Positions 6,731 to 64,000 of a stretch of DNA of 64,000 nt are shown here, one piece after another. The stretch covers positions 1,534,322 through 1,598,321 of the forward strand of contig NZ_CP036273.1 in the NCBI RefSeq assembly GCF_007747215.1, read 5' to 3'. Position 1 is the first letter of the stretch; every line of letters begins with the position of its first letter. Below the pieces are notes generated by a model. It saw only the letters and a list, made by a program, of their open reading frames with translations. It was not told the origin of the DNA and ran no database searches. Made by a program: the position numbers and the translations under genes. The stretch is from Urbifossiella limnaea (GTDB lineage Bacteria; Planctomycetota; Planctomycetia; Gemmatales; Gemmataceae).

Positions 6731-8038
6731 GTGTTCCACCCGGTCGAGCTCGTCCTGGCCCTCGTCGCGGTCGCCGTCGGGCTCGGCGTCGTGGCCCGGC
6801 GGATGCGCGTGCCGTACCCCATCCTGCTGGTCGTCGGCGGGCTGTTGCTCGGCCTCCAGCCGTGGGCGCCGAGCGTCGCCCTCGACCCGCAGGTCGTGTT
6901 CCTCCTGTTCCTGCCGCCGCTCCTGTACGCCGCCGCGTTCCAGACCGAGTGGGCCGACTTCCGGCTGAACCTCCGCCCCATTGTGCTCCTGGCCGTCGGG
7001 CTCGTGCTGTTCACCACCGCCGTCGTCGCCGTGGTCGCCCACGCCGTCGTCGGCCTGCCGTGGCCGTGCGCGTTCGTGCTCGGCGCGATCGTGTCGCCGC
7101 CGGACGCCGTCGCGGCCGTGGCCGTCACGCGGCGCATCGGCGTGCCGCCGGTCATCATCACGCTGCTCGAGGGCGAGAGCCTGGTGAACGACGCCACCGC
7201 CCTGGTCGTGCTCCGGGTGGCGGTCGTGGCGGTGAGCGCGGGGTCTTTCTCGGTAGCCGACGCCGGCGTGCAGTTCCTCGTCGTCGCCGCCGGCGGCGTC
7301 GCCCTCGGCCTGGCCGGCGGGTGGCTCGCGGTGAAGCTACACGCCTGGCTCGACCGCGAGGAGCGGGCCGACGCCAAGCTGTTGATCACGGTCACGCTGC
7401 TGACGCCGTTCGCGGTGTACCTGCCGGCCGAGCACCTGCACGTGAGCGGCGTGCTGGCCGCGGTGACGGCGGGGTTGTGGGTCGGCAGCCGGTGCGAGCA
7501 GGTGTTCAGCCCGGCCCTGTACGAGGAGGCGCGGGCCGTGTGGGAGTGGGTCGAGTTCGTGCTGAACGCGCTGATCTTCATCCTGATCGGCTTCGCCCTC
7601 CGCCCGGTGCTCGACCAACTGAGCGACAACTACGACCCGCTCGACCTGCTGGGGTACTCCGCGGCGGTGAGCGCGGCCGTGATCCTGTCGCGGTTCGTGT
7701 GGGTGTTCCCGGGCGCCTACGTGCCGCGCTGGCTGGACCGCCGGCTCGGCCTGCCGACGACGCCGTACCCGCCACCGCGGGCCGTCTTCGTGGTCGGGTG
7801 GACGGGGATGCGCGGCGTGGTGTCGCTGGCCGCGGCGCTGGCCCTGCCGACCGTCACGGCCGACGGCAAGCCGTTCCAAGGCCGCGACCTGATCCAGTTC
7901 CTGACGTTCTGGGTGATCTTCGCCACGCTGGTGGGGCAGGGGCTGACGCTGCCGTGGGTGGTGCGCCGGCTCGGGCTCGGCGGCCCGCCAGTTCCACCGC
8001 CGGCCGAGGGCGCCCACGTTCCGGAGGACGAGCCATGA
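6731..8038 (+). CDS. CPA1-family Na+/H+ antiporter
   Basis: A polytopic inner-membrane exchanger of 435 residues with about 12 hydrophobic segments. The family's ion-binding signature is present as SPPDAVAAVAV (about 120-130) followed by EGESLVNDATA (about 147-157). The start is a GTG at 6731 giving MFHPVELVLALVAV. It is divergent from the kinase gene across 224 bases. Its stop overlaps the start of the next gene (ATGA at 8035-8038), so the two are probably co-translated. The family moves Na+ or K+ against protons; the exact ion cannot be told here. Confidence 0.92.
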   Translation: MFHPVELVLALVAVAVGLGVVARRMRVPYPILLVVGGLLLGLQPWAPSVALDPQVVFLLFLPPLLYAAAFQTEWADFRLNLRPIVLLAVGLVLFTTAVVAVVAHAVVGLPWPCAFVLGAIVSPPDAVAAVAVTRRIGVPPVIITLLEGESLVNDATALVVLRVAVVAVSAGSFSVADAGVQFLVVAAGGVALGLAGGWLAVKLHAWLDREERADAKLLITVTLLTPFAVYLPAEHLHVSGVLAAVTAGLWVGSRCEQVFSPALYEEARAVWEWVEFVLNALIFILIGFALRPVLDQLSDNYDPLDLLGYSAAVSAAVILSRFVWVFPGAYVPRWLDRRLGLPTTPYPPPRAVFVVGWTGMRGVVSLAAALALPTVTADGKPFQGRDLIQFLTFWVIFATLVGQGLTLPWVVRRLGLGGPPVPPPAEGAHVPEDEP

Positions 8039-12765: not shown

Positions 12766-12879
12766 GAGCCCCGAAGGGGCGGCAGCCAATAGCCCGGGGC
12801 GTAAGCACTGGGAGGCCTACGGCGGAGACGCACCCAGGGCTTGCGCCCCGGGCTATTGGCTGCCGCCCCTTCGGAGCTC
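12766..12879. repeat. 41-bp inverted repeat with CCCGGGCTATTGGC core
   Basis: Arms at 12766-12806 and 12839-12879 pair closely (GAGCCCCGAAGGGGCGGCAG on the left, complement on the right). The intervening loop holds GGCCTACGGCGGAGACGC, whose start also occurs next to the 18512-18633 palindrome, so the two elements share a family. It fills the 315-base gap between divergent genes; no promoter could be picked out. Confidence 0.85.
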
Positions 12880-18474: not shown

Positions 18475-18511
18475 GGGGATGTTCCGAGAATGCGGATGAG
18501 ACAGCGCGAAC

Positions 18512-18633
18512 GCCGCCCGGGGTTGCCACCCCGGGCTAACGACGGCCGCCCCTCCGGGGCTTAATCCGGCTCGGGGCTTGAGCCCCGGAGGGGCGTTCGT
18601 GCTGAGCCCGGGGTGGCAACCCCGGGCGGCCTA
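18512..18633. repeat. long inverted repeat with CCCGGGGTTGCCACCCCGGG cores
   Basis: The arms (about 18512-18562 and 18579-18633) pair over about 50 bases, and each arm contains its own hairpin (CCCGGGGTTGCCACCCCGGG on one side, the complement on the other). GGCCTACGGCGGAG follows the right arm, as in the loop at 12766-12879. It lies between the divergent SMP-30 gene and rplC. The rest of the gap (18634-18805) has no feature I can support except a possible leader for rplC. Confidence 0.85.
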
Positions 18634-18805
18634 CGGCGGAGCGCCGGAAGCGTCACGCGCGTCTGGCCGTTCACCGCCGCGGTCGTATCCTATACGCTTT
18701 CGCCCCCGGGTTCACCAACCGACTGATGCACGGCGCTCCCCGCGCCGGATCGCAGGTCGGCCGGGGCCACCACCAGAGCCGCCGTTCCACGGCGGGAGCG
18801 TTCCC

Positions 18806-19784: not shown

Positions 19785-21449
19785 ATGTCCGCCGCCCCGG
19801 CACTTCTGGCCGCGATCCGCGACCGCCCCGACGACGACACCCCGCGCCTGGCCTACGCCGACTGGCTCGACGACGCCGGCGACGCCGCCCGCGCCGAGTT
19901 CGTGCGCGTGCAGGTGCAGCTGGCCCGCCTCCCCGACCACGACCCCGCCCGCCCCGAACTGGAGGACCGCGAGCACGAGTTGCTGGCGGCGCACGAGCCC
20001 GCGTGGCTCGGCGTGCCGGGCGACGCGCTCACCGAGTGGGAGTGGGAGCGCGGCTTTGTGAACGAGGTGGCATGCGGCCCCGACGCCCTGGCCGAGCACG
20101 GGTCGGCCCTGTTCGCCGGCCACCCGGCCCGCCGCTGGCGGGTGGTCGGGCACCGGTCCGATTGCTGCGCCCAGGTTGCCCACGCTTGGGGCGACCGCAT
20201 CGAGGCGCTCGACCTCCGGGTCGCCCCTCTATCGACCGGCGCAACGGTGCAGTGGCTGGCCGACCACGACTGGTCCCGGCTCGCGGACGTCACACTGGGC
20301 GGGTTTGCCGACACCCGGTGGCAGGCCGATCCGGCCTCAGGGATGCGATTCCGCGCCCAGCTCCGAGCGTTCCACGCGAGCGGACCCACGGGAGAGTACC
20401 GACTCGGTCCGGTGGCCCGGTTCATCGAGCCGGCGGGGCTCGCCGACCTCGGCATCCAGGGCTGCCGCGCGACCGCTCCCGGGCTGGAGTGGCTCCTCGC
20501 CGCCGCGGCCTGCCGGCCGCTGACCCGACTCGACCTTTCTGACAGCAGCCTCGCACCGGACGCCCACCGGGCCTTCGCCCGCCCCGCGCCCGCGCTTACC
20601 GCCCTCGACGTGTCCAGCACCCCGCTCGCCGCGTTCGCACTCGAACCGCTGCTGAACGCCCCCGCGCTCGCCGGGCTGCGCGAGCTGAGCGCCAACCGCT
20701 GCGGGTCGGCCGCGGCCGTGGTGCGGGCGCTGCTCGGGTCGCCCTTCTGGTCGCAGGCCGAAACCCTCCGCCTCGCCGACGCCACCGCCCCCACGCGGCT
20801 CGTCGAGCCGCTGTTCGCCGCCGACGGCCCGGCCGCGCTCCGAACCCTCGACCTGTCGAACAACTTCCTTTACGACGCCGGCGTCGCCGACCTGTGCAAC
20901 GCGAACTGGTCCGGCTCCCTGACGTGGCTCGGCCTCGGCCGGAACTATCTGACGGACACCGCCGCCGAGCGCATCGCCGCGTCCGGCCGCTTCCGCCACC
21001 TGCGGACGCTCCACCTCAGCTACAACCACCCGCGCTGGCTGGAAGACAACGACTTCGACGGCCGCGTGACGGACCGCGGCGCGGTGGCGCTGGCGTCGAG
21101 CCCCGGGCTGGCGGCGCTGCGCGTGCTGACGCTCACCGGTGTCAGCCTGTCCGCGGCGGGCGTCGATGCGCTGCTGAATGGCCCGTTCTGGCGGCTGGCC
21201 GGGTTGGGCCTCGGTCGTTGCGAGCTGACGGCGGAGGCGGTGCGGGTGCTGGCCCGGTCGCCGCGACTGGCGCGGCTGTCGTTCCTCGACCTGAGCGGCA
21301 ACCGCGACCTGCGCGGCGACGCCCTCCGGCCGCTAGCCGAGAGCCCGTACCTGTCGCCGCTGCTGGAACTCGACATCCACGGCTGCGGCGCGTCGGAGGC
21401 GGTGGGGACCGAACTGCGGTCGCGGCTCGGGCGCCGGGTGGGGTTGTGA
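19785..21449 (+). CDS. TIGR02996-domain leucine-rich-repeat protein
   Basis: 554 residues with no signal peptide. The first 45 residues (LLAAIRDRPDDDTPRLAYAD, WLDDAGDAARAEFVRVQ) match the TIGR02996 'repeat-companion' domain, which is characteristic of Gemmata-type planctomycetes. The rest carries irregular leucine-rich repeats (LTRLDLSDSSL, LRTLDLSNNFLYDAGVADL, LTWLGLGRNYLTDTAAERI, LRTLHLSYNH, LSFLDLSGNRDL). It is probably a cytoplasmic interaction protein; partner unknown. The ATG at 19785 starts exactly at the domain. Confidence 0.9.
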   Translation: MSAAPALLAAIRDRPDDDTPRLAYADWLDDAGDAARAEFVRVQVQLARLPDHDPARPELEDREHELLAAHEPAWLGVPGDALTEWEWERGFVNEVACGPDALAEHGSALFAGHPARRWRVVGHRSDCCAQVAHAWGDRIEALDLRVAPLSTGATVQWLADHDWSRLADVTLGGFADTRWQADPASGMRFRAQLRAFHASGPTGEYRLGPVARFIEPAGLADLGIQGCRATAPGLEWLLAAAACRPLTRLDLSDSSLAPDAHRAFARPAPALTALDVSSTPLAAFALEPLLNAPALAGLRELSANRCGSAAAVVRALLGSPFWSQAETLRLADATAPTRLVEPLFAADGPAALRTLDLSNNFLYDAGVADLCNANWSGSLTWLGLGRNYLTDTAAERIAASGRFRHLRTLHLSYNHPRWLEDNDFDGRVTDRGAVALASSPGLAALRVLTLTGVSLSAAGVDALLNGPFWRLAGLGLGRCELTAEAVRVLARSPRLARLSFLDLSGNRDLRGDALRPLAESPYLSPLLELDIHGCGASEAVGTELRSRLGRRVGL

Positions 21450-32021: not shown

Positions 32022-32212
32022 AAGATTCCGCGCCGGAGCGCGAACCATTCCCCGGGTAGCACGTCCATCTACCATCACCACCGCGGCGACGACCGACGCG
32101 AAAAAGTGGTGAACCAACGACCGGGCTCGAACGTCACACGAATACCATGACCCGCCACGACGGTTATACCCTGACGCTCGACGCGGCTGCCGCCGGCAGC
32201 CGGGCGCTCGGG

Positions 32213-32240
32213 TTGTGGCTGGCGGGTGAGAGCGGATAAT
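32213..32240 (+). promoter_or_regulatory. candidate promoter of the tRNA array
   Basis: TTGTGG (32213-32218) and GATAAT (32235-32240), 16 bases apart, form a fair sigma-70 promoter about 75 bases before the first tRNA. It is the only good -10 box in the 294-base gap. The rest of the gap contains only the hairpin at 32267-32294. Confidence 0.5.
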
Positions 32241-32266
32241 CCCCCACGTCGGAACGCGACCAGCGT

Positions 32267-32294
32267 ACCGGCCGGGGGTTGTCCCCCGGCCGGT
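32267..32294 (+). other. 12-bp hairpin in the tRNA-array leader
   Basis: ACCGGCCGGGGG and its complement pair perfectly around TTGT. It lies between the candidate promoter and the first tRNA. No T-tract follows (next bases CGGCGTTTG), so leader structure, attenuation or processing are all possible. Confidence 0.6.
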
Positions 32295-32315: not shown

Positions 32316-32388
32316 GGGACCAAGGTGCTAGCGGCAGCATCGGGGACTCTTAATCCCACGGGTGGAGGTTCAAGTCCTCCTGGTCCCA
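32316..32388 (+). tRNA. tRNA-Lys (CTT)
   Basis: Acceptor GGGACCA/TGGTCCC pairs fully; T-arm GGAGG-TTCAAGT-CCTCC; anticodon loop CTCTTAA gives CTT. The universal T8 and A14 are exchanged to A8 and T14, and pair 27-43 is G-A. Discriminator A; followed by CTG, no CCA encoded. Confidence 0.85.
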
Positions 32389-32399
32389 CTGTTGAGTAT

Positions 32400-32470
32400 G
32401 CATCCGTGGTGTAGCGGAAACATACCGCCCTCCCACGACGGTGACGCGGGTTCGAGCCCCGCCGGGTGCT
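32400..32470 (+). tRNA. tRNA-Gly (CCC)
   Basis: Acceptor GCATCCG/CGGGTGC (one G-T), T-arm GCGGG-TTCGAGC-CCCGC, anticodon loop CTCCCAC. The anticodon stem CCGCC/GACGG has one C-A mismatch and position 38 is C. Discriminator T, usual for bacterial tRNA-Gly; followed by CTG. Confidence 0.82.
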
Positions 32471-32475
32471 CTGGG

Positions 32476-32510
32476 GAATGACGAATGACGAATGACGAAT
32501 GACGAATGAC
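32476..32510. repeat. five tandem copies of GAATGAC in a tRNA spacer
   Basis: Exact 7-nt unit repeated five times between two tRNA-Gly genes. A related tract (one variant AAATGAC and three GAATGAC) occupies the spacer at 32762-32789. Simple-sequence expansion; not a CRISPR. Confidence 0.9.
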
Positions 32511-32517
32511 GAGCAAC

Positions 32518-32589
32518 GCGCCTGTGGTGTTAATGGGAGCACGTCGGCGTGCCAAGTCGGCGGTGCGGGTTCGACCCCCGCCAGGCGCT
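32518..32589 (+). tRNA. tRNA-Gly (GCC)
   Basis: Acceptor GCGCCTG/CAGGCGC fully paired; D-stem GTGT/GCAC; anticodon loop GTGCCAA gives GCC; T-arm GCGGG-TTCGACC-CCCGC; discriminator T; CTG follows. Anticodon stem has two wobble pairs and position 32 is G. Confidence 0.85.
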
Positions 32590-32600
32590 CTGTCGGTAAT

Positions 32601-32671
32601 GCCTCTGTGTTGTAGTGGGAGCCAGCCGCTCTCGTAACGCGGAAGCGTGGGTTCGATTCCCACCGGAGGCT
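32601..32671 (+). tRNA. tRNA-Thr (CGT)
   Basis: Acceptor GCCTCTG/CGGAGGC; T-arm GTGGG-TTCGATT-CCCAC; anticodon loop CTCGTAA. D-stem TTGT/GCCA has a T-C mismatch and pair 31-39 is T-C. Discriminator T; CTG follows. Confidence 0.8.
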
Positions 32672-32684
32672 CTGGTCGGGAACC

Positions 32685-32755
32685 GCCCCCGTGTTGTAAC
32701 GGGAGCCTGCCGTCTTGGTATGGCGGAAGCGTGGGTTCGATTCCCACCGGGGGCT
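32685..32755 (+). tRNA. tRNA-Thr (GGT)
   Basis: Acceptor GCCCCCG/CGGGGGC perfect; anticodon stem CCGTC/GGCGG with loop TTGGTAT; T-arm GTGGG-TTCGATT-CCCAC. D-stem is weak, with only two pairs. Closely related to the preceding tRNA-Thr. Discriminator T; followed by CTT. Confidence 0.8.
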
Positions 32756-32796
32756 CTTAGAAAATGACGAATGACGAATGACGAATGACGAATTCC

Positions 32797-32870
32797 GACA
32801 CGGTACGCGAACTGGTATAGCGACCGGCCTTAAGCCCCGGGGCTTGTGGGTTCGACTCCCACCCGTGTCA
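32797..32870 (+). tRNA. tRNA with Leu anticodon (TAA), no long variable arm
   Basis: Acceptor GACACGG/CCGTGTC perfect; Leu-type D-arm (3-bp CGC/GCG with an 11-nt loop GAACTGGTATA); anticodon loop CTTAAGC gives TAA with G37; T-arm GTGGG-TTCGACT-CCCAC. Only 5 nt (GGCTT) lie between the anticodon and T stems, where tRNA-Leu normally has an arm of 10 nt or more. Discriminator A; followed by CAG. Confidence 0.72.
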
Positions 32871-32880
32871 CAGTGGGTCT

Positions 32881-32965
32881 GCCTTCGGACGTGCGGTGGT
32901 CCGCCGGGCCGCCTGTAAAGCGGCCGCCCCGTGGGGCAATGTGGGTTCGATTCCCACCCGGGGCA
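32881..32965 (+). tRNA. tRNA-Tyr (GTA)
   Basis: Anticodon stem GCCGC/GCGGC with loop CTGTAAA; long variable arm GCCCC/GGGGC as expected for bacterial tRNA-Tyr; T-arm GTGGG-TTCGATT-CCCAC. Best acceptor is GCCTTCG/CCGGGGC with one mismatch and two wobbles. The D region is hard to fold (GGAC/GTCC is possible but leaves extra bases). The 5' end is therefore uncertain. CTG follows. Confidence 0.65.
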
Positions 32966-32978
32966 CTGTCAGTGTAAC

Positions 32979-33050
32979 GGCTCGTTGGTCTAGTGGAAAT
33001 GATTCCAGAGTGTCAACCTGGAGACCGGGGTTCAATTCCCCGACGAGCCG
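32979..33050 (+). tRNA. tRNA-Asp (GTC)
   Basis: Acceptor GGCTCGT/ACGAGCC perfect; discriminator G73, an Asp identity element; anticodon loop GTGTCAA; T-arm CGGGG-TTCAATT-CCCCG. Pair 31-39 is A-C. CTG follows. Confidence 0.88.
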
Positions 33051-33062
33051 CTGATGGGGTAT

Positions 33063-33134
33063 GGCCCGTTCGTCCAGCGGACAGGACGCCTGGTTCTCAA
33101 CCAGAAAACGGGGGTTCGATTCCCCCACGGGTCA
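33063..33134 (+). tRNA. tRNA-Glu (CTC)
   Basis: Acceptor GGCCCGT/ACGGGTC, D-stem GTCC/GGAC, anticodon loop TTCTCAA, T-arm GGGGG-TTCGATT-CCCCC, discriminator A. A close match to ordinary bacterial tRNA-Glu except C-A at pair 27-43. CTG follows. Confidence 0.9.
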
Positions 33135-33143
33135 CTGGTGTTG

Positions 33144-33225
33144 ATGACTGATGATCGAGGATTGATGATTGAAGCACGGCCTGGCTTCCGGAAATCTTCG
33201 GTCCTCGATCACCAATCATCAATAC
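33144..33225. repeat. imperfect palindrome in a tRNA spacer
   Basis: ATTGATGATTG and CAATCATCAAT-like arms, plus a GGATTTCCG-type centre, lie in the 96-nt spacer between tRNA-Glu and tRNA-Leu. No gene. Confidence 0.65.
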
Positions 33226-33230
33226 GAACC

Positions 33231-33304
33231 GGTGATGTAGACCAACGGCAGGAGTCGCCACGCTCAGAACGTGGACAGTGTGGGTTCGAATCCCACCGTC
33301 ACCA
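33231..33304 (+). tRNA. tRNA with Leu anticodon (CAG), no long variable arm
   Basis: Acceptor GGTGATG/CGTCACC; Leu-type 3-bp D-stem GAC/GTC with an 11-nt loop; anticodon stem CCACG/CGTGG perfect, loop CTCAGAA; T-arm GTGGG-TTCGAAT-CCCAC; discriminator A. The variable region is only ACAGT, 5 nt. CTG follows. Confidence 0.8.
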
Positions 33305-33316
33305 CTGGAAGTGAAT

Positions 33317-33384
33317 TGCGGACGGGCGGGCGCCCGGTCGGGTCTCATAAGCCTGAAGGCCGGGTTCGACTCCCGGGTCCGCAA
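33317..33384 (+). tRNA. tRNA with Met anticodon (CAT), shortened D-arm
   Basis: Acceptor TGCGGAC/GTCCGCA perfect; anticodon loop CTCATAA; T-arm CCGGG-TTCGACT-CCCGG; discriminator A. Only 15 nt lie between acceptor and anticodon stem, foldable as GGG/CCC with a 6-nt loop. There is no GGG:CCC anticodon-stem signature, so it is not an initiator. A CAT anticodon could also be a tRNA-Ile2 after modification. CTG follows. Confidence 0.72.
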
Positions 33385-33390
33385 CTGACT

Positions 33391-33471
33391 GACCTCGTGC
33401 TGGAACTGGTATACAGGTCCGGTTGAGAGCCGGTGCCGAGAGGCGTGTGGGTTCGACTCCCACCGGGGTCA
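33391..33471 (+). tRNA. tRNA-Leu (GAG)
   Basis: Acceptor GACCTCG/CGGGGTC; 3-bp D-stem CTG/CAG with loop GAACTGGTATA, shared with the TAA tRNA; anticodon loop TTGAGAG; a proper variable arm GCC-GAGA-GGC; T-arm GTGGG-TTCGACT-CCCAC; discriminator A. The only Leu gene here with class II form. Begins 6 nt after the Met tRNA. CTG follows. Confidence 0.86.
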
Positions 33472-33492
33472 CTGCGGCTACAGCCGCACAAC

Positions 33493-33561
33493 GGGGCCGC
33501 CCGCGGGCGGGGGCTGTGTCTTGCAAACACGGACGCGTGGGTTCAACTCCCCGCGGCTCCA
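33493..33561 (+). tRNA. tRNA-Ala (TGC), short D-arm and bulged T-stem
   Basis: Acceptor GGGGCCG/CGGCTCC with the G3:T70 pair that defines Ala identity, discriminator A. Anticodon stem TGTGT/ACACG, loop CTTGCAA. Only 15 nt between acceptor and anticodon stems. The T-stem pairs best as GCG-(T)-GGG with CCC-CGC, leaving a bulged T. CTG follows. Confidence 0.75.
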
Positions 33562-33565
33562 CTGC

Positions 33566-33648
33566 GGGGGACAGGAGCCAGGGGACGGGAGACAGGAAAC
33601 GACCGCCAGTACTGCGTTTCCTGTCTCCCGTCCCCTGCTCCCTGACTC
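33566..33648. repeat. long palindrome in a tRNA spacer
   Basis: GGGACAGGAG...GGGACGGGAGACAGGAAACG on the left pairs with CGTTTCCTGTCTCCCGTCCC...CTCCTG on the right. About 35-bp imperfect arms in the 94-nt spacer between tRNA-Ala and tRNA-Ser. Confidence 0.85.
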
Positions 33649-33655
33649 CTGACAC

Positions 33656-33739
33656 GGAAGGGTGCGCGGAACTGGTAACGCGCCGGCCTGCTAAGTCGGG
33701 GCCCGCAAGGGCGTGAGGGTTCGACTCCCTCTCCTTCCG
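33656..33739 (+). tRNA. tRNA-Ser (GCT)
   Basis: Acceptor GGAAGGG/TCCTTCC; discriminator G; 3-bp D-stem CGC/GCG; anticodon stem CCGGC/GTCGG, loop CTGCTAA; variable arm GCCC-GCAA-GGGC; T-arm GAGGG-TTCGACT-CCCTC. A well-formed class II tRNA. CTG follows. Confidence 0.92.
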
Positions 33740-33751
33740 CTGACGGTGCAT

Positions 33752-33824
33752 ACCCTGGTGGTCCAACGGATCACGACACCACCCTCCGAAGGTGGGGATC
33801 CAGGTTCGACTCCTGGCCGGGGTA
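33752..33824 (+). tRNA. tRNA-Arg (CCG)
   Basis: Acceptor ACCCTGG/CCGGGGT; anticodon stem CCACC/GGTGG perfect, loop CTCCGAA; T-arm CCAGG-TTCGACT-CCTGG; discriminator A. D-stem GTCC/CGAC has one C-C mismatch. CTG follows. Confidence 0.88.
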
Positions 33825-33827
33825 CTG

Positions 33828-33880
33828 CGGGAGGGATGAGGGATGAGAATCGGTGTCTTCCCTCATCCCTCATCCCTCCC
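33828..33880. repeat. GGGATGA palindrome in a tRNA spacer
   Basis: GGGAGGGATGAGGGATGAG and its complement CTCATCCCTCATCCCTCCC flank a short centre in the 61-nt spacer between tRNA-Arg and tRNA-Val. Confidence 0.9.
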
Positions 33881-33885
33881 CAGAT

Positions 33886-33958
33886 GGTCCCGTGGTCCAG
33901 CGGCGACGACGCCTCCCTGACGCGGAGGAGAGCGGTGGTTCGAGTCCACCCGGGATCA
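33886..33958 (+). tRNA. tRNA-Val (GAC)
   Basis: Acceptor GGTCCCG/CGGGATC; anticodon stem CCTCC/GGAGG perfect, loop CTGACGC; T-arm GGTGG-TTCGAGT-CCACC; discriminator A. D-stem GTCC/CGAC with a C-C mismatch, as in tRNA-Arg. CTG follows, in a palindromic spacer (TGCCCCGACCGGGGCA). Confidence 0.88.
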
Positions 33959-33978
33959 CTGCCCCGACCGGGGCACAT

Positions 33979-34053
33979 GCGGCGTGTGGTGTAACGGCTT
34001 GCACGCGGCGCTGTGAACGCCGAGGAGCGGGGTTCGACTCCCCTCACTGCCGC
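33979..34053 (+). tRNA. tRNA-His (GTG) with bulged acceptor stem
   Basis: The extra G at -1 opposite C73 is encoded, the hallmark of tRNA-His. Acceptor CGGCGTG pairs with CA-TGCCG if one C (34047) bulges out. D-stem GTGT/GCAC, anticodon stem CGGCG/CGCCG with loop CTGTGAA, T-arm CGGGG-TTCGACT-CCCCT (last pair C-T). CTG follows. Confidence 0.82.
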
Positions 34054-34060
34054 CTGACAC

Positions 34061-34130
34061 AGAGGGATGCTCCTGGGAGAGCACGCGGCCTCCAAAGCCG
34101 CCCCACAGGGTTCGAATCCTTGTCCCTCTG
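34061..34130 (+). tRNA. tRNA-Trp (CCA)
   Basis: Acceptor AGAGGGA/TCCCTCT perfect, discriminator G73 as in bacterial tRNA-Trp; D-stem GCTC/GAGC; anticodon stem GCGGC/GCCGC, loop CTCCAAA; T-arm CAGGG-TTCGAAT-CCTTG. Last gene of the array, 7 nt after tRNA-His; followed by CTC. Confidence 0.88.
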
Positions 34131-34142
34131 CTCGCGCCGACG

Positions 34143-63660: not shown

Positions 63661-63719
63661 GGTGTGGCGTCCGAGGGGTGAGTGCGGATAGAGATACCGA
63701 GAGCCCCACCGGGTCGGGA

Positions 63720-63806
63720 ATGACCAATTTCCAATGACCCACCAATGACCAAGGAAGACAGCCGGGGTTTTCCTTGGTCATTGGTGGGTCATTGGAAATT
63801 GGTCAT
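63720..63806. repeat. 36-bp perfect inverted repeat (TGACCAATTTCCAATGACCC)
   Basis: Arms 63720-63755 and 63771-63806 are exact complements over 36 bp with a 15-nt loop. The right arm runs into the stop codon of the last gene (63803-63805). It resembles the GAATGAC and ACAGAG elements in being a long A/T-richer palindrome in a high-GC gap. Confidence 0.9.
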
Positions 63807-64000
63807 TTTGCCCCCTGCCACCGGTACATCACGTCCGTCCGCAGCACGTACTTCCGGCCGCTCTCGACCGGCGCCCCCCGGTGGAGGATGCGGTGCGCGA
63901 ACACCAGCGCCATCCCCGGCTCCGGCACCACCGACACGACCGGGTCGTCGTCCTGCAAGCGGCCGAAGGTGAGGAAGTTGAACTCCGTCGCGCCGCCGGT
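63803..64000 (-). CDS. C-terminus of a 2OG-Fe(II) oxygenase (runs off the right edge)
   Basis: The last 65 residues are visible: EFNFLTFGRLQDDDP, PGMALVFAHRILHRGAPVES and GRKYVLRTDVMYRWQGAK, then stop. The second metal His (ILHRG) and the 2-oxoglutarate-binding Arg (YVLRTD) are those of prolyl-4-hydroxylase-like dioxygenases. The first HxD is outside the window. Its stop codon lies in the palindrome above. Confidence 0.75.
   Translation of the reverse strand, partial: TGGATEFNFLTFGRLQDDDPVVSVVPEPGMALVFAHRILHRGAPVESGRKYVLRTDVMYRWQGAK

Follow-up and report, generated by a model that had tools for sequence, protein, structure and literature searches.

The tRNA array and its upstream region

We analysed a window of 64,000 nucleotides (nt) from Urbifossiella limnaea, a planctomycete of the family Gemmataceae (G000:C1:1534322-1598321; genome of 7.80 Mb on a single contig), which carries a dense array of transfer RNA (tRNA) genes on the + strand at 32316-34131 (Table 1). 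ARAGORN detected 17 tRNA genes, and a hand-read tRNA-Ala(TGC), missed by both ARAGORN and Rfam, makes 18; it aligns with the array Ala(TGC) of relatives, including the G3:U70 pair. Number, strand, order and anticodons are as described in a sequence-only reading of the window, and its remark that all but two anticodons start with C or G is confirmed (16 of 18). At the gathering threshold, the Rfam scan of the window scored 13 of the 17 ARAGORN tRNAs, and the whole-genome Rfam search added tRNA-Leu(GAG) and tRNA-Tyr. The Rfam E-values (1e-3 to 1e-10), together with the conservation in relatives, exclude a chance pattern. The extent given in that reading holds for the tRNA part but not for the start of the unit, as a predicted leader open reading frame (ORF) and a terminator-like hairpin lie already at 32147-32294.

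A redundant tRNA set

It had been considered beforehand that these might be the only genes for their anticodons in the genome, which is not the case. A whole-genome tRNA search, combined with ARAGORN on fetched stretches, gave an ordinary set of 47 tRNA genes outside the array, covering all 20 amino acids and mostly scoring 50-75 bits. Each array anticodon is also present elsewhere, that of Gly(CCC) in just a single low-scoring gene (5360147). Because a full ordinary set exists elsewhere in the genome, the array is redundant, which supports the earlier suggestion of a separate tRNA set.

Ten or eleven further low-scoring tRNA genes, here called satellites, are scattered over the genome in small groups, and the Gly(CCC) gene at 5360147 may itself be one of them. 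Array and satellites jointly cover all 20 amino acids, the six lacking in the array being supplied by satellites. Sequence comparison places the Asn, Gln, Lys, Phe, and Pro satellites with a second Gemmataceae cluster (genomes G011 and G045) and the Glu(TTC), Arg, and Cys satellites with the array tRNAs of relatives; the assignment of Ile, Met, and Gly(CCC) is ambiguous. With standard wobble, array and satellites decode approximately 82% of the codons in the long ORFs of the window, the main gaps being GCC, GTG, and CCC. Codons ending in C or G account for approximately 93% in the same ORFs.

Conservation and relocation of the array

DNA of the array was matched in 65 of 95 family genomes, and the named matches are Gemmataceae, including Gemmata sp. 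IIL30. In 20 fetched Gemmataceae regions, ARAGORN found 10-24 tRNAs each, in a common order with local losses: Glu(TTC)-Trp-Asp-Lys-Gly-Gly-Thr-Leu-Tyr-Glu(CTC)-Leu(CAG)-Met-Leu(GAG)-Ala-Ser-Arg-Val-His-Thr. In one genome (G052), the array is split into two blocks. A search of 394 genomes of the phylum for three T arms at array spacing returned many arrays, and those fetched from other families of the class contain up to 37 tRNAs, cover all 20 amino acids and retain a recognisably related order. A planctomycete outside the class (G103, L193) has a 21-tRNA array with a different order, perhaps an independent array.

The array tRNAs are 82-100% identical to their Gemmataceae array orthologues and 69-88% identical to tRNAs in the arrays of other families. 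Their identity to the ordinary tRNAs of their own genome is 63-78%, which rules out a recent duplication of the latter. Phage and plasmid collections gave single- or two-tRNA matches only, covering at most 7% of the query in any record. The matches in 65 family genomes, the collinear arrays and the lack of any record in these collections that matches more than about two adjacent tRNAs led us to reject a recent import from a phage or plasmid. The sequence-only reading had considered such arrays horizontally acquired, which is not supported given these matches, the collinearity and the homologous arrays in other families; nor is its decaying import, in view of the high orthologue identity and the family-wide collinearity.

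In 12-17 fetched relatives, among them the congener G092, the array has ribD on its upstream side and genes for an ArsR-type regulator and a MATE transporter, co-directional, on its downstream side. Within a separate named collection, array tRNAs occur within 5 kb of nine of the 13 Gemmataceae MATE loci versus none of eight distant MATE genes. Synteny with pgsA was ruled out, as pgsA does not adjoin the array in relatives and only the array plus its leader is conserved as a block. Because relatives keep the array beside ribD and ArsR/MATE and not beside pgsA, we conclude that the unit was relocated in this genome, together with its leader. The earlier alternative of the same array in the same place in close relatives is thus borne out for the array and not for the place, with the ribD and ArsR/MATE neighbours found in Gemmata and in G092. 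The MATE orthologue in the genome of the window (441564-442910) lies approximately 1.2 kb from the Arg and Cys satellites and is convergent with them.

Selection on the array tRNAs

Across 21 Gemmataceae arrays, stem positions pair in 88-100% of cells per isoacceptor group. Where stem positions vary, 95.3% of the cells are paired, compared with 77.2% (maximum 78.6%) with shuffled partners; this control, and not the raw pairing percentage, carries the weight, because ARAGORN itself selects for pairing. Each isoacceptor group has a nearly invariant discriminator base, with the exception of Tyr, for which the parsing is uncertain. The alanine identity pair G3:U70 occurs in 43 of 46 array tRNA-Ala, compared with 17 of approximately 700 others. 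The anticodon loops are mostly ordinary, and in most array tRNA-Leu (75-77 nt) the variable arm is short and class-I-like, which is unusual in bacteria. Since the stems co-vary and the discriminators and the Ala G3:U70 pair are kept, the array tRNAs appear to be selected as chargeable tRNAs. On these comparisons, the array is very probably an inherited, selected second tRNA set. We also observed recurrent tRNA-Arg(GCG) and tRNA-Ile(TAT) in arrays of other families (e.g. L174, L176, L186), whose anticodons avoid inosine or lysidine modification.

Predicted leader ORF and terminator-like hairpin

An alignment of the region preceding the array in Gemmata revealed a conserved hairpin with a short ORF on its 5' side. 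We compared 28 arrays with a usable upstream region (18 from Gemmataceae and 10 from other families). Those of G088, G033, and G054, in which a looser scan gave no clear leader, were left out, as were those of G266, G377, and the second blocks of G328 and G408 from other families, likewise with no clear leader. In all 28, a short ORF stops 26-34 nt before a GC-rich hairpin that itself lies shortly before the first tRNA, a count that is partly by construction because the ORF was chosen by its C-terminal pattern. The constant spacing, the shared starts and ends and the ratio of nonsynonymous to synonymous differences (pN/pS) are not by construction. Leaders start with MTxWHxSxEL in Gemmata and with M-FLR in other families and end with DTSG* or LRL/LRM* (asterisk, stop); pN/pS was 0.14-0.82 in nine pairs. 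The terminator score, combining stem and T tract, was at least 25 in 24 of the 28 arrays versus 0.2% of 1499 random stretches.

The stop codon of the window leader lies 27 nt 5' of the hairpin, and the hairpin stem (CCGGCCGGGGG/CCCCCGGCCGG) is also found in relatives, where the T tracts are stronger; a consensus terminator scan missed the window hairpin. The stop-codon segment can pair with the 5' arm of the terminator, and this complementarity is kept though the sequences differ between Gemmataceae and the other families. A sigma-70 promoter scan upstream of the array, uninformative for a planctomycete, gave no match, and an Rfam search with the leader of one relative returned no known family. 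Leader and terminator are laid out like a translation-sensing attenuator, whose pairing logic we infer. They are likely, with good confidence, to control the array in the family.

RNA-repair genes near the arrays of relatives

In six arrays of other families, an HNH endonuclease gene lies between tRNA-His and tRNA-Trp or in the corresponding gap, and further arrays outside Gemmataceae hold or adjoin genes for an RNA_ligase-family protein, Ro60 (TROVE plus vWA), or slipin (Band_7). The class was searched with each protein, and ARAGORN was run on the top matches plus 1.5 kb. At least one tRNA-like gene was present at 27 of 30 slipin, 17 of 30 Ro60, and four of six RNA-ligase loci, and at least two tRNAs at 16 of 30 HNH loci; the pgsA control gave at least one at two of 30 loci, one of which is the window array itself. 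Relatives of the HNH protein are present in 291 of 298 genomes, for the most part at sites away from arrays, and the one in the genome of the window has no tRNA nearby.

At many slipin loci (L264-L291), one tRNA-like element lies approximately 0.4-0.6 kb upstream of the slipin gene. Its D and T arms are conserved, its anticodon is random, and a proper acceptor stem is missing. Rfam returned only tRNA-type matches for these elements and no Y RNA family. We take them to resemble YrlA-type Y RNAs, and they are possibly such RNAs. Other proteins encoded inside arrays are an EF-Tu paralogue with all three EF-Tu domains, between tRNA-Val and tRNA-Ser of the G377 array (L183 3138-4310), and a protein family with no Pfam match, found in several arrays (L184 of G328, reverse strand; L186 5964-6761; L176 5635-6309).

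Surroundings of the array in the window

The array is flanked upstream by a gene for a DUF6585 protein and downstream, on the opposite strand, by a pgsA-like CDP-alcohol phosphatidyltransferase gene. The pgsA side had been named correctly beforehand; the proposed DAHP synthase side had not, as no DAHP synthase was present in the ORFs scanned. No integrase was found among the neighbouring ORFs scanned (DUF6585, pgsA, radical SAM, PriA, and others), in agreement with the earlier reading. The hairpins in the spacers after tRNA-Glu, tRNA-Ala, and tRNA-Arg (-42 to -67 kcal/mol) are built of short repeated words, and similar long hairpins occur at 2036-2124 and 63719-63807. ARAGORN also called tRNAs at 7942-8014 and 21189-21264 with no Rfam support; both are probably false, the second lying inside an ORF for a leucine-rich repeat protein. 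Matches to Acido-Lenti-1 RNA form two head-to-head pairs at 12767-12878 and 18507-18635, one of them within a 61-nt inverted repeat.

Table 1. Features of the tRNA array unit (window positions) and satellite tRNA genes (genome positions in kb).
Feature	Position	Strand	Evidence or remark
Predicted leader ORF, 30 aa, MTRHDGYTLTLDAAAAGSRALGLWLAGESG*	32147..32239	+	position and C-terminal pattern as in 17 other Gemmataceae leaders
Terminator-like hairpin, 12 bp stem, 4 nt loop, then weak T tract (CGGCGTTTG)	32267..32294	+	
tRNA-Lys(CTT)	32316..32389	+	ARAGORN; Rfam 47.9 bits
tRNA-Gly(CCC)	32400..32471	+	ARAGORN; Rfam 51.8 bits
Spacer, GACGAAT direct repeats	32472..32517	+	
tRNA-Gly(GCC)	32518..32590	+	ARAGORN; Rfam 49.0 bits
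tRNA-Thr(CGT)	32601..32672	+	ARAGORN; Rfam 51.9 bits
tRNA-Thr(GGT)	32685..32756	+	ARAGORN; Rfam 48.3 bits; G015 orthologue 96% identical
Spacer, GACGAAT direct repeats	32757..32796	+	
tRNA-Leu(TAA), short variable arm; Leu(CAA) at that position in most relatives	32797..32871	+	ARAGORN; Rfam
tRNA-Tyr(GTA)	32881..32966	+	ARAGORN; 24.5 bits; G092 orthologue 95% identical
tRNA-Asp(GTC)	32979..33051	+	ARAGORN; Rfam 53.1 bits
tRNA-Glu(CTC)	33063..33135	+	ARAGORN; Rfam 59.7 bits
Spacer, long hairpin, -46.8 kcal/mol	33136..33230	+	
tRNA-Leu(CAG), short variable arm	33231..33305	+	ARAGORN; Rfam 56.3 bits; G017 orthologue 100% identical
tRNA-Met(CAT); T1-A72 end pair, shared with the presumed initiator of the genome (L041)	33317..33385	+	ARAGORN; relatives
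tRNA-Leu(GAG)	33391..33472	+	ARAGORN; 42.7 bits
tRNA-Ala(TGC), G3:U70	33493..33561	+	alignment with array Ala(TGC) of relatives
Spacer, very stable hairpin, -67 kcal/mol	33563..33655	+	
tRNA-Ser(GCT)	33656..33740	+	ARAGORN; Rfam 47.5 bits
tRNA-Arg(CCG)	33752..33825	+	ARAGORN; Rfam 55.1 bits
Spacer, long hairpin, -42.3 kcal/mol	33826..33885	+	
tRNA-Val(GAC)	33886..33959	+	ARAGORN; Rfam 57.2 bits
tRNA-His(GTG)	33979..34051	+	ARAGORN; Rfam 35.8 bits
tRNA-Trp(CCA)	34061..34131	+	ARAGORN
Satellites Arg(ACG) and Cys	440 kb		
Satellite Glu(TTC)	1410 kb		
Satellite Asn	6363 kb		
Satellites Gln-Lys-Phe-Pro	6384 kb		
Satellites, single Ile and single Met			

Discussion

Sequence comparison shows a redundant tRNA set of considerable age and conserved order, with co-varying stems, kept identity elements, and a leader ORF and hairpin preceding all 28 arrays compared; RNA-repair and efflux genes are its neighbours in relatives. 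In Anabaena sp. PCC 7120, TrcR represses a trn operon of 26 tRNAs together with rtcB, slipin, and an HNH gene; the operon is silent until translation is inhibited, is induced by translation-targeting antibiotics, and shares its regulon with an exporter operon (PMC10272220). The planctomycete array resembles it in being a long tRNA operon redundant with the housekeeping set, and the regulon partners in Anabaena correspond to the kinds of protein encoded beside planctomycete arrays, with RNA ligase or Ro60 in place of RtcB, which was not searched for. In contrast to the plasmid-borne trn operon with its ribbon-helix-helix repressor at the promoter, the planctomycete arrays are chromosomal and class-wide, are preceded by a leader ORF and terminator, and in several families cover all 20 amino acids. 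Judged by kinds of gene, this parallel in the partners is striking, and we therefore propose a translation-stress reserve under attenuation. For a cyanobacterial link through the HNH protein, the only good plasmid match was in Acaryochloris, and its fetched annotation contained no tRNA array.

In this proposal, the array would form the main part of an ancient second tRNA set, competent in translation and passed on by vertical descent, and would be transcribed as a single unit from a promoter upstream of 32147, with the leader ORF and the hairpin terminator between promoter and array. During normal translation of the leader, a ribosome at the stop codon would cover RNA able to compete with the terminator, so that the terminator would form and keep the tRNAs off. 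Under impaired translation, whether from ribosome-targeting antibiotics or from loss of charged or intact tRNAs, ribosomes would stall upstream or become scarce, the stop-codon segment could pair with the 5' arm of the terminator, and the polymerase would read into the array. The spare tRNAs would then undergo processing and CCA addition and be charged by the ordinary synthetases; they could sustain translation while damaged tRNAs are cleared or repaired. We infer the promoter position, the single transcript, the antiterminator, the off/on behaviour, the charging, and the physiological signal. We assign a probability of roughly 60% to this full mechanism of a reserve tRNA operon switched on by attenuation when translation is impaired. 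A stress-tRNA reserve had been among the options offered by the sequence-only reading, and this option is supported.

Several observations weigh against this mechanism. Because only approximately 82% of codons are read, the set is not self-sufficient here. The window copy looks weaker than those of relatives, with its poor T tract and 30-aa leader; three of its spacers contain long hairpins, and the scores of tRNA-Ala and tRNA-Tyr are very low. In 15 of the 28 leaders, the terminator 5' arm finds its best complement in the stop window, and the interval has other small hairpins; since this pairing is best in only about half of the leaders, we do not take the antiterminator as shown. The fractions of tRNA-linked neighbour loci are biased upwards, because the queries were array-derived and top matches were taken, and at the thresholds used this genome contains no Ro60 (E ≤ 1e-20), slipin, or RNA ligase of these types.

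Among other explanations, a reserve against tRNA-cleaving weapons (anticodon nucleases, phage-triggered defence, toxin-antitoxin or bacteriocin tRNases) would be a special case of the stress reserve with another trigger, in which diverged tRNAs escape cleavage or replace cleaved tRNAs. The Ro60, slipin, RNA ligase, and Y-RNA-like tRNA-like elements adjoining arrays in other families favour it, as does the regulation of the Salmonella RNA repair operon by damaged tRNAs (PMC7790460). However, the mostly ordinary anticodon loops would still be cut by loop-reading nucleases, and the repair neighbours were not found in this genome at the thresholds used; we regard this trigger as unlikely. A constitutive gene-dosage supplement for the most-used codons of a GC-rich genome would fit the preponderance of anticodons beginning with C or G, the frequency of codons ending in these bases, and the co-varying stems of functional tRNAs. 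It is rendered rather improbable by the low identity to the genome's own tRNAs, unlike that of recent duplicates, by the uncovered major codons GCC, GTG, and CCC, by the terminator before the first tRNA in nearly all arrays, and by the rarely used tRNAs among the sets of other families.

The scattered satellites, the very low Ala and Tyr scores, the hairpin-filled spacers, the poor T tract of the leader hairpin, and the longer arrays of relatives could also point to a relic, formerly functional and now being lost in this genome. ARAGORN nevertheless still finds 17 of the 18 genes, the orthologue identity and the kept discriminators argue for continuing selection, and the unit moved with its leader intact, so that we consider decay improbable. 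Phages, plasmids, and integrative and conjugative elements are known to carry dense mixed tRNA arrays, and the flanks here differ from those of relatives; yet an order conserved across the family and recognisable across the class, no phage or plasmid record matching more than about two tRNAs, and no integrase among the neighbouring ORFs scanned leave a recent acquisition from such elements with a very small probability. Equally remote is a non-translational pool, such as amino-acid donors for peptide or cell-envelope modification: redundancy with the full ordinary set would allow it, but the coverage of 20 amino acids, the intact anticodon loops, and the synthetase identity elements point to decoding.

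The array units of mycobacteria, Firmicutes, phages, and plasmids (PMC5966550) are likewise dense, single-stranded in orientation, and of mixed anticodons; they are sporadic and often linked to mobile elements, whereas the planctomycete order is conserved in the family and recognisable in the class, and no mobile element was found. Many planctomycete arrays have Ro60, slipin, and a tRNA-like element next to them, which recalls the bacterial Rtc/Ro60/Y RNA repair operons (e.g. Salmonella, PMC7790460). In contrast to those operons, the neighbouring ligase is RNA_ligase (PF09414); RtcB and RtcR were not searched for.

Leader-peptide transcription attenuators control antibiotic-response genes such as whiB7. 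What the planctomycete unit has in common with them is a short leader ORF whose stop lies a short distance before an intrinsic terminator; here the genes under the predicted regulation are tRNA genes. To our knowledge, no leader-peptide attenuator of a tRNA operon has been known. We found no paper describing such arrays in planctomycetes in the open-access literature, subscription papers being outside the search. Anabaena already provides an example of a reserve tRNA operon; what appears new, within the open-access literature searched, is the inheritance across the class, the predicted leader-peptide attenuator, and the Ro60/slipin link.

Most of the large redundant tRNA arrays known in bacteria lie on mobile elements. 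The planctomycete array is chromosomal, inherited, and selected, with a candidate switch tying its expression to the state of translation, and the idea of an emergency reserve is directly testable in cultivable Gemmata. We see an even chance that the class-wide, near-complete, order-conserved tRNA set, the translation-sensing leader attenuator, and the Ro60/slipin/RNA-ligase link together form an emergency translation kit. At the positions of Arg(GCG) and Ile(TAT), bacteria normally use inosine or lysidine modification; if the kit exists, these two tRNAs in the fuller arrays would make it partly independent of tRNA-modifying enzymes. The findings suggest a logic common to the Anabaena trn/TrcR regulon, RNA repair, and the planctomycete arrays.

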